Shown: piece by piece, positions 39,055 to 46,992 of the stretch
Layout: every line of letters begins with the position of its first letter
Numbering within the stretch: position 1 is the first letter of the stretch
DNA from: Clostridiales bacterium
GTDB lineage: Bacteria > Bacillota > Clostridia > Oscillospirales > Oscillospiraceae
DNA: 46,992 bases
Assembly (NCBI GenBank): GCA_021205695.1
Contig: JAJPXB010000033.1
Coordinates: forward strand, 1-46,992
Direction of reading: 5' to 3'
The notes under the pieces: generated by a model
Database searches by the model: none
What the model saw: the letters and a program-made list of their open reading frames with translations, nothing else
Told to the model about the DNA's origin: nothing
Position numbers and translations under genes: made by a program

Positions 39055-39093
39055 GAGGCCGGAGCCGCTGGAAAAGCGGCTCCGGCCTGTTTT
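39055..39093 (+). terminator. Terminator between the rhomboid-like and beta-glucuronidase genes
   Basis: AGGCCGGAGCCGCT pairs perfectly with AGCGGCTCCGGCCT, followed by GTTTTTC. It lies between convergent genes and can act in both directions. TTTTTGACAGACTG abuts its 5' side. Confidence 0.8.
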
Positions 39094-39101
39094 TCACGTT
39101 T

Positions 39102-40895
39102 TCATCCCTTGTAGCCAAAATCCGGTATCCCCTTCCACCGCCGGCGGAAGTAATGGGCGGCCAGCTTGGGGCGGCGGTCCCGGGTCAGCAGGCCCTTCCT
39201 GTTCCCGTCCACCCGCATGGGGCCCTGGATGGTGGCGAAGTCCGCGAAGTTCCACACGTGCTCCCCGATAAAGAAGGGCCGCCTGTCCAGCTCCGCGTTC
39301 AGCCGGGCGTAATAGTCCCTCTGGTACTCCTCGCTGAACATCTCCCCGTTGGTGTTGTGGATGCCGGGATAGGTGTCCGCCCCGTACTCGGTGAACATCA
39401 CCGGCTTGCCCTGCTCCGCCCAGAAGTCCAGCTCGGTGTTCAGCGCGTCGCAGGCGGCGTCCAGGTCGCCGCACAGGTTGTACCAGCCATAGTACCGGTT
39501 CAGACACACCACGTCCATGGTGCGGGTGATGATGTCCTTTTCGTAGTTGTTCTGGCAGCAGACCAGGGTGACGGGCCGGTTCTGGGGGTCCTGGGCGTGG
39601 GCCTGGTCATAGAGGGGGCGGAAGTAGTCGTAGGCGGACTGGGGGAAGTGCTCCGTGTCCGGCTCGTTGGCGACAGACCACATGACCACCGAGGGGTGGT
39701 TCTTGTCCCGGTCGATCATGTCCCGCAGCACGTCCCGGTGATGCTGACGGATGCGCATGACCCGGTAGGGGTCCTCGCTGCCACCTGCGTTGATGCCCAC
39801 GGCGGGGGTCTCGTCGATGATGACGATGCCCTCCCGGTCGCACAGGTCGTACATCTCCTCGGCGTAGGGGTAGTGGCTGGTGCGGAAGGAGTTGGCCCCC
39901 AGCCAGCGGATGAGAGACACGTCCTTCACGTTCAGGCAGGAATCCGTCCCCCGCCCGTGGAAAAAGCTGTCCTCGTGCTTGCCGAAGCCCTTGAAGTAGA
40001 AGGGTCGGCCGTTGATGAGGAACTGCGTCCCCCGCACCTCCACCGTGCGCACGCCGAAGGTCTGCTCGTACACATCCTCCCCGAAGCTCACCCGGGCGGT
40101 GTAGAGATAGGCCCTTCCCGGCTGCCACAGGACGGCGTTGGGGATGCGGCACCGGCCCTCGGCTCCGTCCGCCTCAGCCACGGCGCGGCGCTGCTCGTCC
40201 AGGATGGTCACATGGACGCTGCCCGCGCCCACCGTCTCCACCCGCCAGTCCACCAGGCCGTCCGCCCCGTCCAGGCCGGGCGCCAGGCTGATGTCCCGGA
40301 TGTAGTCCCTGGGGGTGGTGTAGAGGTACACGGGCCGGATGATGCCCGCATAGTTGAAGAAGTCGAAGTTGGGTCTGTTGGCGGGCCTGCAGCGGGTCTT
40401 GGCCAGCTCGATGGAGGGGATGCCCGGGTTGTCCGAGCCGAAGAAGGCCACGGTGCTCTCGTTGCCCACCGGCAGGGTGGCGTAGTTCACCCGATTGTCC
40501 ACCGCCACGGTGAGCAGATTGTCCCCGGCGGTCAGGGCGTCGTTCACCTCGAACTCAAAGGGCAGGAAGCCGCCTCTGTGGCTCCCCAGCCTCCGGCCGT
40601 TCAGGTACACGTCGGCGGTATGGGTCACCGCCCCGAAGCGGAGAACGATGCGCTCCCCCAAAAGGCTCCTGGGGACGGAAAAGCGCCGCTGATACACCGC
40701 CCAGCCGTAGTGGCTGCGGAGGTTCACGTCGTCCTTCTGGTCGTTGTAGGAGGCGGGCACCGCCATGGTCAGGGCGTCCTCCATGGGCGCCGCCGTCCAC
40801 TCCCGGGGATAGTCCTCCGCCCCCGCCGTCCGGAAGGCCCATACGTCGTTCAGTCCCATCAGGGTGCGGGCCTCGCTCAGTTTTGGGTAAAGCAT
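39102..40895 (-). CDS. uidA: Beta-glucuronidase (GH2)
   Basis: 597 residues, typical length. It hydrolyses beta-D-glucuronides. The GUS hallmark RPNFDFFNYAGIIRPV is at 174-189. The acid/base is Glu 411 in MWSVANEPDTE and the nucleophile Glu 503 in MFTEYGADT. The N-x-K pair that recognises the glucuronate carboxylate is present as Asn 565 and Lys 567 in GNRKGLL, which separates GUS from other GH2 enzymes. The active-site loop after DETPAVGIN is short, matching the no-loop gut class. No signal peptide. The start overlaps the upstream GH78-like gene by 19 bases. It is the last gene of the uronate run. Confidence 0.92.
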   Translation of the reverse strand: MLYPKLSEARTLMGLNDVWAFRTAGAEDYPREWTAAPMEDALTMAVPASYNDQKDDVNLRSHYGWAVYQRRFSVPRSLLGERIVLRFGAVTHTADVYLNGRRLGSHRGGFLPFEFEVNDALTAGDNLLTVAVDNRVNYATLPVGNESTVAFFGSDNPGIPSIELAKTRCRPANRPNFDFFNYAGIIRPVYLYTTPRDYIRDISLAPGLDGADGLVDWRVETVGAGSVHVTILDEQRRAVAEADGAEGRCRIPNAVLWQPGRAYLYTARVSFGEDVYEQTFGVRTVEVRGTQFLINGRPFYFKGFGKHEDSFFHGRGTDSCLNVKDVSLIRWLGANSFRTSHYPYAEEMYDLCDREGIVIIDETPAVGINAGGSEDPYRVMRIRQHHRDVLRDMIDRDKNHPSVVMWSVANEPDTEHFPQSAYDYFRPLYDQAHAQDPQNRPVTLVCCQNNYEKDIITRTMDVVCLNRYYGWYNLCGDLDAACDALNTELDFWAEQGKPVMFTEYGADTYPGIHNTNGEMFSEEYQRDYYARLNAELDRRPFFIGEHVWNFADFATIQGPMRVDGNRKGLLTRDRRPKLAAHYFRRRWKGIPDFGYKG

Positions 40896-43021
40896 TCCAG
40901 TTCCGTCCTTTCCAATGTGGGGGCGCAGCCCCTTCGCTTCGTCACCGTCAGCAGCGAGCCCCGGAACGGGGCCCGAAGGGTAAAGCCGTCCAGCTCCTCC
41001 GGCAGATGGGGCTCAAACCGGAACCCCGACCGGCTGTACGGGTCGGGCCGCAGCCCCGCCAGCTCCTCCACAATGAGGGGGATGGCCCCGCTGGCCCAGG
41101 GGTGGCACAGGCTGGTGTTCCACTTCTGCTCCTTCCCCCAGGCCTCAAAGCAGGCCGTGGCCCCCTCCCGGAGCATATTGCGCCAGCCGTATGCGTCCGT
41201 TCGGGTCAGCAGGCGGTAAAGGGCGTCATATTTCCCCATGCGCCCCAGGCCCCGGAGGGCGAAATACATGGGCAGCACGCCGCACACCCGCCCGGGGGTG
41301 CAGAGCAACCGCTCATAGGCGTCCCACCCCTCCTCCGGCAGCAGGCCGAAGAATGCGGCGTAGAGGTTGGCGTGGAGGGAGCAGTGGCCGCTGACGGCGC
41401 TGTCGGCAAAGAGCCGTTGCGGCCGCCGGTAGAAGGCCCGCAAAAAGGCCGCCTTCACCCGGTCAGACCGGTTTTCCGCCGGCAGGCCCAGCGCGGCCTT
41501 CATCCGCTCCTCCGTGGCCAGCGCCCCGTACCACAGGGCGTTGATGACGTTGTGGACGCCCTGGCCCACGATGGGCCGGGGCAGGGGGAAGTCATAGTCG
41601 TCCCGGAGGTTGTCCGGCCAGTCCACCAGGTTCCACAGCTCATCCACCGTCTCCAGCAGGCCGTCGGGCCGCTGCCACTTCCGGGCGAACGTGTCCAGCA
41701 GGGACGACACGGCGGGGAGACACCGGGCCAGGAAATCCCTGTCCCCGGTAAATTCCCAGTCCGTCCACACCAGCAGGGGGAACAGCAGGGAGTAGTCCCC
41801 GATCTCCTGCATGAGAGAGCCGGGGGCCACCGCCATCAGGGTGGGGGAGATGCGGGCAGAGGCCAGAAAGTCCCCGATGCACTTGCGGAGCATGGCCGGG
41901 TCCCCGGTGAGCCACAGGTGGGAGCGGGCGGTGATGACCGCGTCCCCCAGGTACTGCCCCTTCTCCCGGGTGCAGCAGTCCACAAAGCCCTCCTGGGTGC
42001 AGCAGCGGACGGCGTTTTTGCAAATGGCAAAGATGTCCCCCAGCTCGTCTGTGGGACAGCGGAGATCGGACAGGCGCTCGTCCATGGGGTAGTGCCGCTC
42101 CTCTGCGTGGAGATCGCTGACCTCCACATCCCTTGGATACAGCACCTCCGCATAGCGGAACGCCCTGTAGTCGTAGGGGTGGAGGATGTTCTCCCCCTCG
42201 TCCAGGGTCCAGCGCTCCTCATAGCGGCAGTTGCACCGCAGCTCGCAGCGCACCCGCCCCTTCTCCAGCTCCTCCCCCAGACGGAGGATGACCGTCTGTC
42301 CGGCGTGTCCCCTGGCGGAGAGATGCAGCGTCCCCGCCAGCTCCCGGCCAAAGTCCAGGAGCAGGCCGCCGGGGACGGGGCGCACGCTCTCCGGCAGCCT
42401 TTCCCCCTCCCACAGTGGCTCCGTCTCCTGGGGAATCAGGCGATAGTCCGCCCAGAGGGCGGGGACGAGACGGCCCCAGTCCCTGTCGTCAAAGCCGGGG
42501 CGCTCCCAGCCCTCCGGGTACTGCCGGGCGTCGAAGTCCTCCAGGAACTGCGTCTCATACCCCACCGGCGCGCCGGAATAGGCGGTGCAGATCCGGTATC
42601 TCCACTCGATGGGGCAGACCGCCCCATTTGGGCCCACCGCCTCCGCCCACAGGCCGAAGCGTCCGTCGCCGCTGTTCCACACCCGGTTCACCAGGCCCTG
42701 ATAGTACAGGTGGAGGGCGACGGTGACGGTCTGCTCCCCCGCCAGGGGGTAGGTCAGGTAGGGATACCGCTCCGGGTAGGCGGGGGCGGGGCCCTGTCCG
42801 GCATAGACGCCATTCAGCCACAGCTGGTAGTGGTCGTCGGCGGTGAGGCGGAGCCGATGCTCCCCCGGCCCCAGGGTCAGCGCCCCCCGCGCCAGCACGT
42901 GGAGGTTGGCGGGCGCTCCCGTGGGGGGCAGAGGGGAGTTGTCCTGCTCCCGGCGGAACACGTCGATCTGCCGGACGTGCGCCCACTCCGGGACGGTCAG
43001 CCAGCCGGTGTGCGGGGACAT
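40877..43021 (-). CDS. GH78-like alpha-L-rhamnosidase family protein
   Basis: 714 residues. The N-terminal part is beta-sandwich-like with LTADDHYQLWLNGVYAGQGPA. The (alpha/alpha)6 domain contains FVDCCTREKGQYLGDAVITARSHLWLTGDP, the GH78-type signature in which Glu follows CxxR. Later come NLVDWPDNLRDDYDFPLPRP and TACFEAWGKEQKWNTSLCHPWASGAIPLI. It lacks a signal peptide. It differs strongly from the other GH78 at 977, so the substrate may not be a simple rhamnoside. In this operon it would act with beta-glucuronidase, for example on rhamnosyl-uronate glycans. GGGAGGGAGC precedes ATG 43021. Confidence 0.85.
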   Translation of the reverse strand: MSPHTGWLTVPEWAHVRQIDVFRREQDNSPLPPTGAPANLHVLARGALTLGPGEHRLRLTADDHYQLWLNGVYAGQGPAPAYPERYPYLTYPLAGEQTVTVALHLYYQGLVNRVWNSGDGRFGLWAEAVGPNGAVCPIEWRYRICTAYSGAPVGYETQFLEDFDARQYPEGWERPGFDDRDWGRLVPALWADYRLIPQETEPLWEGERLPESVRPVPGGLLLDFGRELAGTLHLSARGHAGQTVILRLGEELEKGRVRCELRCNCRYEERWTLDEGENILHPYDYRAFRYAEVLYPRDVEVSDLHAEERHYPMDERLSDLRCPTDELGDIFAICKNAVRCCTQEGFVDCCTREKGQYLGDAVITARSHLWLTGDPAMLRKCIGDFLASARISPTLMAVAPGSLMQEIGDYSLLFPLLVWTDWEFTGDRDFLARCLPAVSSLLDTFARKWQRPDGLLETVDELWNLVDWPDNLRDDYDFPLPRPIVGQGVHNVINALWYGALATEERMKAALGLPAENRSDRVKAAFLRAFYRRPQRLFADSAVSGHCSLHANLYAAFFGLLPEEGWDAYERLLCTPGRVCGVLPMYFALRGLGRMGKYDALYRLLTRTDAYGWRNMLREGATACFEAWGKEQKWNTSLCHPWASGAIPLIVEELAGLRPDPYSRSGFRFEPHLPEELDGFTLRAPFRGSLLTVTKRRGCAPTLERTELECFTQN

Positions 43022-43039: not shown

Positions 43040-43843
43040 TTACGGCTGCTTGCCGATATAGGCCAGGATGCCGCCGTCCACATACAAGATCTGTCCGTTG
43101 ACGAAGTTGGAGGCGTCGGAGGCCAGGAACACCGCCGGGCCGGTCAGGTCGTCCACCGTGCCCCAGCGCTCCGCCGGGGTCTTGGCGCAGATGAACTGGT
43201 CGAAGGGGTGGCGGCTGCCGTCGGCCTGTAGCTCCCGCAGCGGGGCAGTCTGGGGGGTGGCGATATACCCCGGGCCGATGCCGTTGCACTGGATGTTCTG
43301 CCCGCCGAACTCGGAGCAGATGTTTTTGGTGAGCATCTTCAGCCCGCCCTTGGCGGCGGCGTAGGCGGAGACGGTCTCCCGCCCCAGCTCGCTCATCATG
43401 GAGCAGATGTTGATGATCTTGCCGTGTCCCTTGGCGATCATCCCCGGCAGCACCGCCTTGGAGACGATGAAGGGGGCGTTCAGGTCCACGTCCACCACCT
43501 GACGGAATTCGGCGGCGGACATCTCGCACATGGGGATGCGCTTGATGATGCCGGCGTTGTTCACCAGGATGTCGATGACGCCGACCTCCTCGCGGATTTG
43601 GGCCACCATGGCCTGCACCTGCTCCTCGTCGGTGACGTCGCAGAGATAGCCCCTGGCGTCGACGCCCGCCGCCCGGTAGGCCGCCTCCGCCTGGGCCAGC
43701 CGCTCCGCATTGTGGCCGTTAAAGACGATTTTGGCCCCCGCCTCGCCGAAGGCCTTTGCAATGGCGAAGCCGATGCCGTAGGTGCCGCCGGTGACCAGCG
43801 CCAGCTTTCCCTCCAGGGAGAATGCGTCCAGAATGTTGCTCAT
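43040..43843 (-). CDS. kduD: 2-dehydro-3-deoxy-D-gluconate 5-dehydrogenase / gluconate 5-dehydrogenase
   Basis: 267 residues from ATG 43843, chosen because TGAGGTGA lies 6 bases upstream; a GTG nine bases earlier overlaps the previous stop. It is an SDR with VTGGTYGIGFAIA, NNAGIIKR, the catalytic Ser in INICSMMSELG and Tyr/Lys in YAAAKGG. KduD reduces 2,5-diketo-3-deoxygluconate to 2-keto-3-deoxygluconate (KDG), the step after KduI. The adjacent kduI gene supports this over a general gluconate dehydrogenase. No kdgK or kdgA is in the window. Confidence 0.88.
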   Translation of the reverse strand: MSNILDAFSLEGKLALVTGGTYGIGFAIAKAFGEAGAKIVFNGHNAERLAQAEAAYRAAGVDARGYLCDVTDEEQVQAMVAQIREEVGVIDILVNNAGIIKRIPMCEMSAAEFRQVVDVDLNAPFIVSKAVLPGMIAKGHGKIINICSMMSELGRETVSAYAAAKGGLKMLTKNICSEFGGQNIQCNGIGPGYIATPQTAPLRELQADGSRHPFDQFICAKTPAERWGTVDDLTGPAVFLASDASNFVNGQILYVDGGILAYIGKQP

Positions 43844-43848
43844 GCCGC

Positions 43849-44691
43849 TCACCTCAGATCGGGGATGTCGATGTTGTCCATGTCGTCAAAGGCCTGGTTT
43901 TCCCCGCCCATGGCCCAGATGAAGGTGTAGTTGCTGGTGCCCGCTCCGGCGTGGATGGACCAGGAGGGGGAGATCACCGCCTCCTCGTTGTGCATGACGA
44001 TGTGGCGGGTCTCCTGGCCCTCCCCCATCATGTGAAAGACCACGTTGCCCTCCGGGATGTCGAAGTAGGTGTAGATCTCCATCCGCCGCTCGTGGGTGTG
44101 GGCGGGCATGGTGTTCCACACGCTGCCCGGCTCCAGGACGGTCATGCCCATGGAGAGCTGGCAGGTGGGGAGCACGTCGGGATGGATGAACTGGTTGATG
44201 ACCCGCTTGTTGGAGGTCTCCATACTGCCCAGGGGCCGCTTGGCGGCGTCGGCCAGCTTGATGAGCCGGGTCTCATAGGAGCAGTGGGCCGGGGCGGACA
44301 CCATGTAGAACTTGGCAGGGGCCTCCGGGCTGTCGCTGGAGAAAAGCACCTCCTTCGCCCCCCGGGTGATGTACAGGCAGTCCTTGTTCCCCATGGGGTA
44401 GACCGTGCCGTCCACCCGGATCTCGCCGGGCGCGCCGATGTTGAAGATGCCGATCTCCCGGCGCTCCAGGAAGTAGTTCGTGCCGAAGCTGGCCCAGACG
44501 TCGATGCCCTTGTCGATGGACACAGTCTCGTGTACCGGCATACAGCCCAGCGTGACCATCCGGTCCACATGGCTGTATACCGCCGTCACCCGGTCGGGCT
44601 GGTACAGGTTTTGGATCAGAAACTCGTCCCGCAGCTCCTGGGTGGTGTAGCGTTTGACGTCTCTCTGGTTGGCAGAATAGCGGATGTCCAT
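43849..44691 (-). CDS. kduI: 5-keto-4-deoxyuronate isomerase
   Basis: 280 residues. KduI isomerises 4-deoxy-5-hexulose-uronate, made from unsaturated uronates of pectin or glycosaminoglycans, to 2,5-diketo-3-deoxygluconate. The start MDIRYSANQRDVKRYTTQELRDEFL is highly typical. The cupin metal ligands are visible as HTHERRMEIYTYFD (His, His, Glu) and a later His in ETRHIVMHNEE, and the C-terminus FIWAMGGENQAFDDMDNI is conserved. AAAGGAGAAACTG precedes ATG 44691. It lies 28 bases after the chimeric gene and 5 bases before kduD. Confidence 0.95.
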   Translation of the reverse strand: MDIRYSANQRDVKRYTTQELRDEFLIQNLYQPDRVTAVYSHVDRMVTLGCMPVHETVSIDKGIDVWASFGTNYFLERREIGIFNIGAPGEIRVDGTVYPMGNKDCLYITRGAKEVLFSSDSPEAPAKFYMVSAPAHCSYETRLIKLADAAKRPLGSMETSNKRVINQFIHPDVLPTCQLSMGMTVLEPGSVWNTMPAHTHERRMEIYTYFDIPEGNVVFHMMGEGQETRHIVMHNEEAVISPSWSIHAGAGTSNYTFIWAMGGENQAFDDMDNIDIPDLR

Positions 44692-44719: not shown

Positions 44720-45523
44720 TCAAAGATAGTCCACCTGGGTCCGGATCGTCTGCACGCCCTTCCGGATGGCGTACACCGCCATGGGGATGGAGGTCTTGGT
44801 GGCGATCAGGTTGGTGTTGGGGTCGGGGATGAGCACCTCTCCCCTGCCGTCCCCGGACAGAGAGGTGACGGCGCAGCGGTCGCCCCGGCTGACCACCTCG
44901 GACACAGGCCCCTCCGCCCTCCGGGAGAAGGAGATGCGGTCGTCGGTGGAGAGGGCGAAGCCGCAGTCATAGGCGGTGCAGTCGAAGCCGCTCTCGATCG
45001 TGTGGATGCGCAGATGGCCCCGCTCGTTGGGGACGAGCCGGGTGCGCACCCGGATGCCCTCCAGGGGCGACCAGCGGAAGTCCAGCCCGTCCTCCCCGAC
45101 GCGGTATCCCGGCTCCACCAGGTCCTTCACATAGAAGTAGCCCCCCACCCGGAAGCAGAGCATGCTGTCCGGAGCCATCTCCCCCAGGGTCACGGGGGTG
45201 CGGGAGATGCTGAAGGCGAACCGGCTGGAGTAGGCGAACTTGCTGTACTTCTCCACCGTATGGCTGTGGCCGTCCGCCTGCAGACGCCCCGGCACCAGGG
45301 CCACCACGTTGTCCCGCCCCCGCTGGAGGAACATCCCGGCGTGGGCCAGGTAATGCTGCCGCTCCGCCTTCCGGCAGATCTTGTCGTAGATCTTCCGGCA
45401 GCAGGCCTCCGGGTCGGGGTCGGCGCAGGAGAGCAGGGAGATGCCCATGGTGATGGTGCGGATGTCCAGGTGCTGCTGGTCGATCATCTCGATGGTCTGC
45501 ATGATCTCATTTCTACTCAGCAT
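44720..45523 (-). CDS. Chimeric gene: N-terminus of DUF711 (UPF0210) fused in frame to the C-terminus of DUF2264
   Basis: 267 residues. Residues 1 to about 54 (EIMQTIEMIDQQHLDIRTI then TMGISLLSCADPDPEA and KIYDKICRKAER) match the start of UPF0210/DUF711, a protein normally about 450 residues long and encoded right after an ACT-domain gene, as here. From about residue 55 (QHYLAHAGMFLQRG, then HSHTVEKYSKFAYSSRFAFS, MAPDSMLCF and NLIATKTSIP) it matches the C-terminal beta domain of DUF2264, a polysaccharide-lyase-like family of about 600 residues. The joint lies near 45350-45370. Both catalytic cores are missing, so the product is probably non-functional or altered. The promoter side comes from the housekeeping gene. 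Confidence 0.7.
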   Translation of the reverse strand: MLSRNEIMQTIEMIDQQHLDIRTITMGISLLSCADPDPEACCRKIYDKICRKAERQHYLAHAGMFLQRGRDNVVALVPGRLQADGHSHTVEKYSKFAYSSRFAFSISRTPVTLGEMAPDSMLCFRVGGYFYVKDLVEPGYRVGEDGLDFRWSPLEGIRVRTRLVPNERGHLRIHTIESGFDCTAYDCGFALSTDDRISFSRRAEGPVSEVVSRGDRCAVTSLSGDGRGEVLIPDPNTNLIATKTSIPMAVYAIRKGVQTIRTQVDYL

Positions 45524-45532
45524 GGCAGTCCC

Positions 45533-45802
45533 TCAGATCCGGTGCATGGCGTTGAAGATGTCTTCCCGCTGGACGTGGATGGTCAGGCCCAGGCCCCTGC
45601 CCTCCTCCTGGAGGTACTGGACCAGCCGGGCAAAGGGCAGCTCCGTCTGCTCCGCGTCCACCATCATGATCATGGTGAAGTAGTCCTGCATGACGGTCTG
45701 GCTGATGTCCAGCACGTTGACCTGGTTCTTGGCCAGCAGAGCGCAGACGTCCGCGATGATGCCCACTCTGTCCTGTCCCACGACGGTTACGATTGCGCGC
45801 AT
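45533..45802 (-). CDS. ACT domain protein (UPF0237 family)
   Basis: 89 residues: MRAIVTVVGQDRVGIIADVCALL, then NVLDISQTVMQDYFTMIMMVD. This is a single ACT domain of the UPF0237 type. In many Bacillota this gene is paired with UPF0210 (DUF711). Here only the first part of that partner remains, 9 bases downstream. It probably binds a small effector, but its physiological role is not settled. ATG 45802 lies within the last codons of the HD gene (16-base overlap) and follows AGAGAGGTCATCGCC. Confidence 0.88.
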   Translation of the reverse strand: MRAIVTVVGQDRVGIIADVCALLAKNQVNVLDISQTVMQDYFTMIMMVDAEQTELPFARLVQYLQEEGRGLGLTIHVQREDIFNAMHRI

Positions 45803-46767: not shown

Positions 46768-46992
46768 GGGGGAGAGGGCCACAAAGTCCGTCCCCCGCCG
46801 CCGTCCTTTTTTCATGGATATACAAAAAGAAATATGATTCACATATTAGGGGCGCGGAGCCGTCCCCGCCCCTCCCTGCAAGTATACCCGAATCCGTCCC
46901 CGATTGCAAGACCAACGCGGCCCGGCGGGGCCTCAGATCTGTAGCATTACAATAGATGTGAGACCAGAGGATAGAAAAAGGCGATTGAGTTT
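46768..46992. other. Intergenic end of the window
   Basis: No coding frame is supported. GGGGCGcgGAGCCGTCCCCGCCCC forms a GC dyad near 46850-46872. TACAAT at 46948-46953 could be the -10 of a plus-strand gene beyond the edge. Confidence 0.3.

Follow-up and report, generated by a model that had tools for sequence, protein, structure and literature searches.

The window analysed here, a 46,992-nucleotide stretch of DNA from a Clostridiales bacterium, carries near one end an open reading frame (ORF) of 267 aa on the minus strand (44720..45523), which starts with ATG, lacks internal stops and is composed of parts of two genes. The 5' part (45359..45523, minus strand) is a DUF711/UPF0210 fragment comprising codons 1-55 of about 452 (Pfam PF05167), and the 3' part (44720..45358, minus strand) is a DUF2264 fragment corresponding to the complete C-terminal beta-sandwich domain (Pfam PF20938, AlphaFold2 model). 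Both domains were recognized by Pfam in the one protein: residues 12-57 match DUF711 (E 3.9e-12, model positions 1-46 of 413), residues 88-256 match DUF2264_C (PF20938; E 1.2e-18), and separate searches with residues 1-54 and 55-267 returned the respective expected family for each part. Residues 1-56 share 96% amino acid identity with the whole DUF711 gene of the relative G007, and the DUF2264 side is 92% identical to residues 375-586 of the DUF2264 parent in the relative G020. An earlier note on this DNA had assigned the first 54 residues to DUF711 and the rest to DUF2264_C; the two families stand, but the joint is located one codon later, dividing the protein into residues 1-55 and 56-267. 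The intact frame described there agrees with the open ORF.

The parents of the chimera are considerably longer in the relatives, with about 452 aa for DUF711 and about 586 aa for DUF2264 (GH154-type). Codons 56-452 of DUF711, amounting to 88% of the gene, are absent from the chimera, and the NCBIfam model NF003700, which we take to be of the UPF0210 type, matched residues 2-56 with only 56.7 bits (cut-off 440), short of a full-length DUF711/UPF0210 protein. No Pfam match to the catalytic domain PF10022, which occupies residues 13-368 of the G020 parent, was found in the chimera. Solved structures, namely BcGDH (PDB 9o4u and 9nwf) and 8oi4 (deposited as a beta-galactosidase), align to residues 48-370 of the DUF2264 parent only, and the dehydratase domain is therefore wholly lost. 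The earlier reading that neither catalytic core is kept is thus confirmed.

The neighbouring genes are likewise encoded on the minus strand. An ACT-domain gene of 89 aa (45533..45802; NCBIfam NF001220, 128 bits vs 74) lies directly upstream of the chimera, and kduI, encoding 5-dehydro-4-deoxy-D-glucuronate isomerase (43849..44691; NF002091, 429 bits vs 250), lies directly downstream, followed by an SDR gene of the gluconate 5-dehydrogenase type (43040..43852; NF005488, 496 bits vs 369). Since this SDR fell below the cut-offs of the NCBIfam KduD models (241 bits vs 369 and 223 vs 339), the kdu genes previously placed downstream are reduced to kduI. The retained part of the cassette continues with an alpha-L-rhamnosidase-like gene (40877..43021; Pfam PF17389, E 5e-32) and has at its distal end a GH2-type gene (39102..40895; PF02836), where homology to the cassette stops at 39091-39108 in seven of nine relatives and at the relatives' own contig ends in the other two. 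Beyond the ACT gene there is a 204-aa stretch without a Pfam match, which from its motif is presumably an HD hydrolase, and then an HPr-like gene; the contig continues just 1.6 kb past the joint. The ACT-HPr neighbourhood was also seen in G008 and G010, unlike the flanks of the ACT-DUF711 pair of G007 (L032:8501-10138), which map to three other places in the source genome (contigs C63, C15 and C72).

A match to the chimera was detected in 50 of 59 genomes searched, the source genome included, and every match outside the source genome belongs to one parent only. The N-terminal-side matches mostly cover residues 1-53 to 1-56, some extending past the joint and the furthest reaching 1-97 (45% identity, G056), while the C-terminal-side matches span residues 52/54-267, apart from a 24-residue piece in G026. 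An end-to-end relative of the 267-aa protein was found neither in the 59 genomes nor among the best 80 of 210 related stretches, drawn from a collection that may leave out the source genome's own records. Five of these 80 stretches match from residues 26-38 onward; the overhang was considered as end-to-end homology and rejected as chance, because the first 55 residues alone gave a significant match in none of the five. A family conserved over the whole length, which the earlier note had named as evidence against a fusion, was accordingly sought and not found in these two sets.

Within the genus, DUF711 was matched in 25 of 32 genomes, including the source genome by its fragment only, and DUF2264 in 13 of 32, again with the source included; three of the 13 matches are short and weak (E 2.6e-5 to 4.6e-4), leaving the source fragment and nine relatives. 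Both genes are whole in G007, and other relatives hold one or both, some broken by contig ends or frame breaks. ACT and DUF711 are contiguous in all 11 of the longer retrieved loci that include the 5' side, to which this count is confined, and DUF2264 and kduI are contiguous in 9/9 relatives. The proposal that ACT and kduI are the usual partners of two genes that exist separately in related genomes was therefore borne out.

The joint was mapped to 45358..45359 (no strand assigned) and features a microhomology of 1-2 nt. The ORF agrees with the DUF711 DNA of relatives to nt 166 and with their DUF2264 DNA from nt 165 or 166, and these limits of parental agreement place the transition from DUF711 codon 55 to DUF2264 codon 375 at window position 45358/45359, just past the DUF2264 dehydratase domain, with that domain lost and the second domain kept. 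No long shared word was found at the joint when five DUF711 genes were compared with four DUF2264 genes, the longest word common to any pair being 10-13 nt. The DUF711 and DUF2264 loci are adjacent in none of the relatives seen: in G007 each is situated on its own contig of about 50 kb, well away from the contig ends, and in G020 DUF2264 occupies 91.6-93.4 kb on a contig of 136 kb without DUF711, a fragment of which is carried on a 5.8-kb contig. A simple small deletion between neighbours is not supported, as the loci are on different contigs in both genomes, and a rearrangement was probably needed as well.

The source genome (2.24 Mb, 82 contigs) is rated 99.74% complete, and its assembly lacks the inner part of each parent: neither DUF711 beyond codon 56 nor any other DUF2264 sequence, N-terminal part included, was found. 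When 18 kb of G020 with DUF2264 and its surroundings were compared, the segment from DUF2264 codon 375 through the GH2 gene (L035:8740-14984) matched this contig and the parts past the GH2 gene matched other source-genome contigs, while the 8.7 kb before L035:8740 gave scattered weak matches only in the source assembly (best 121 bits over 204 bases). About 4 kb or more of the cassette upstream of DUF2264, in which a GH88 gene immediately precedes DUF2264, is conserved in eight of the nine relatives, the exception being G029, whose contig starts at DUF2264. The GH88 gene was not found in the source genome by a search that matched 3 of 14 control genomes. What is gone is thus 88% of DUF711 and, from a conserved GH88-DUF2264-kduI cassette, the portion ahead of the joint, which measures 8.7 kb on G020. 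The single deletion of several hundred codons that had been proposed is only partly right, since the loss is far larger and a rearrangement was probably involved. As to the stretch following DUF711 in G020, its best source-genome match (74%) is on contig C1; the end of C1 was considered as the missing DUF711 flank and rejected, as it carries the same repeat end as the window and no DUF711.

The explanation that accounts best for these observations, with a probability of roughly three in four, is that a recent illegitimate rearrangement made the chimera by removing the inner sides of both parents, the product being a by-product. The two loci would first have been brought close by rearrangement, after which an illegitimate join at 1-2 nt of microhomology would have connected DUF711 codon 55 to DUF2264 codon 375 in this lineage, removing most of DUF711, the GH88 gene, the DUF2264 dehydratase domain and further upstream cassette DNA. 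The joint would then be real in the cell, and the chimera, if expressed, would be read from the ACT-DUF711 transcript, on which kduI may be included as well. Loss of GH88 and the dehydratase would have deprived the lineage of a pair of steps able to supply the KduI substrate. The chimera is thus a real-looking but ordinary chimeric remnant, probably left over from a recent chance rearrangement rather than a new working protein.

The main competitor, though improbable, is an assembly chimera, in which an ACT-DUF711 end was linked to a DUF2264-kduI contig by a chimeric read or during scaffolding, while the genes themselves are intact in the cell and their other halves unbinned. The nine nearest named records are all metagenome assemblies called Clostridiales bacterium, just 1.6 kb of contig lies on the far side of the joint, and DUF711 lies in a tangled stretch. 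At five of six contig ends examined inside DUF711 (G008, G022 twice, G031 and G004), words of 55-80 nt are identical in another species, and the sixth (G020) has a 47-nt shared word; the 55-80 nt words look like the product of a de Bruijn graph with k near 55. Among 25 other genus genomes with completeness of at least 90% and contamination of at most 5%, DUF711 is whole in 16, absent from four, present only as a contig-end fragment in four and split over two contig ends in one. As DUF711 assembles poorly in the genus, the absence of its 3' part alone is weak evidence. The DUF711 5' part of the source genome also has an 83-nt exact word in common with G007 (nt 67-149), and the assembly path there could therefore be mis-phased between species, although the joint itself is not made thereby. 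The contig ends of related assemblies at such words of 55-80 nt inside DUF711 are those of L034, L126, L127, L128 and L129, and the gene is thus often incomplete in these assemblies.

Against an assembly error, no shared word is present at the joint, and both other halves plus most of the 8.7 kb of cassette would have to be missing from a 99.74%-complete assembly. The two sides of the joint are equally distant from G008 (88.6% identity for the flank beyond ACT and 88.4% for the cassette side), and a true upstream DUF2264 path in the reads would be expected to interrupt the contig there. The nearby contig end is accounted for by a repeat, since the window terminates in the end of a multi-copy element (46940..46992, plus strand), identified by its matches in the source genome; all 21 matches listed there are at contig ends or no more than 2 bases from one. 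The repeat at the contig end and the lack of a long word at the joint make misassembly less likely, and the indirect evidence is on balance mostly against it. The element has a sharp outer border (TGTAGC...) and two end types, it was matched in five genus relatives (G005, G019, G027, G029 and G031), and a serine-recombinase ORF was seen near one copy in G027 (L166).

A working new protein under selection, with the C-terminal beta-sandwich freed from the dehydratase and placed behind the ACT-DUF711 promoter, is a much weaker candidate. The joint is in frame and just past the catalytic domain, the second domain is kept whole and confidently modelled, and neither side of the chimera shows decay. 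However, about a third of same-strand joins would be expected to fall in frame, no homologue of the chimera was found in the 59 genomes or the best 80 of 210 stretches, the C-terminal domain follows the catalytic domain in the DUF2264 of nine relatives, and a recent event would be just as likely to show no decay. DUF2264 is moreover split by frame breaks in three of the nine relatives (L041, L132 and L133, from G028, G031 and G029, respectively), with one TGA in G031, reflecting either decay in progress or sequencing errors; the gene may hence be expendable, or the assemblies erroneous. Retention for a new role, as suggested previously, is not supported, and the particular version in which a stand-alone DUF2264 beta-sandwich under the ACT-DUF711 promoter was retained for a new carbohydrate-binding or regulatory function, encoded immediately ahead of kduI, is very improbable.

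Substitution patterns were in line with a recent event. The dN/dS of the DUF2264 side, for a segment started two codons before the joint, was 0.10-0.16 against each of nine relatives (median among relatives 0.134), and that of the 5' side was 0.03-0.15 against 11 relatives; relatives were used where they covered more than 80% of a segment, which gave 9, 11, 9, 8 and 6 for five segments. The DUF2264 side has six private residues and no gaps, compared with two to six private residues in eight relatives, G031 having been dropped from this comparison and from the trees as its alignment is one base short. In small DNA and protein trees of the DUF2264_C segment the longest terminal branch is that of the source genome, and some faster change is thus possible. 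Decay by substitutions was sought on both sides of the chimera and not found, which indicates that the event is recent or, less likely, that the chimera is selected or an assembly artefact.

The AlphaFold2 model showed pLDDT values of 71-99 in blocks from residue 61 on and of 47-58 at residues 1-50. A fold search with the model returned polysaccharide lyases as the best matches, the first being HepC (PDB 4mmh, E 1.4e-6, TM by query 0.55), and gave no pointer to a new function. On the rearrangement reading, the likeliest product is an inactive by-product, in which a loosely ordered N-terminal tail would precede a folded beta-sandwich and the activities of both enzymes would be lacking.

Chimeric genes arising from multigene deletions have been reported in Mycobacterium tuberculosis, where whole-genome sequencing data served to call the fusions and mass spectrometry demonstrated one of the products (Gallant et al. 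2020, PMC7671302). As in the cases described there, the loss of several genes fuses the 5' part of one gene with the 3' part of another and is recognized by genome comparison, while the parents here are non-neighbours in the relatives seen and the chimera is known from an assembly. BcGDH (9o4u, 9nwf) is described as a beta-D-glucuronate dehydratase that makes a substrate for GH88, and the pairing of DUF2264/GH154 with a GH88 gene is reported as frequent for the family (PMC12269599). Likewise, the DUF2264 parent aligns to BcGDH over residues 50-365 and stands beside a GH88 gene; in contrast, the chimera lacks the whole catalytic domain and retains the second domain only. The same report gives BT3677 a second domain that BcGDH does not have, which probably corresponds to DUF2264_C. 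No paper on DUF2264 by that name was found in a literature search. For DUF711/UPF0210, the structure of SP0239 (PDB 2ha9) is listed in ECOD as a ten-stranded beta/alpha barrel (PMC4390871), with residues 6-54 of which the chimera aligns through its own residues 6-54, about 88% of the protein being missing.

If real, the joint means that GH88 and the glucuronate-dehydratase domain were lost from a sugar-acid cassette of which kduI and its neighbours remain, and it would illustrate cleanly how open chimeric frames can arise from illegitimate joins. Annotation may name such an ORF after either parent, though neither enzyme is present. G026, a genome that lacks the DUF2264 gene, has a stretch (C89:3415-3486) encoding 24 residues with 83% identity to the extreme C-terminal end of DUF2264, which may be a further cassette remnant.
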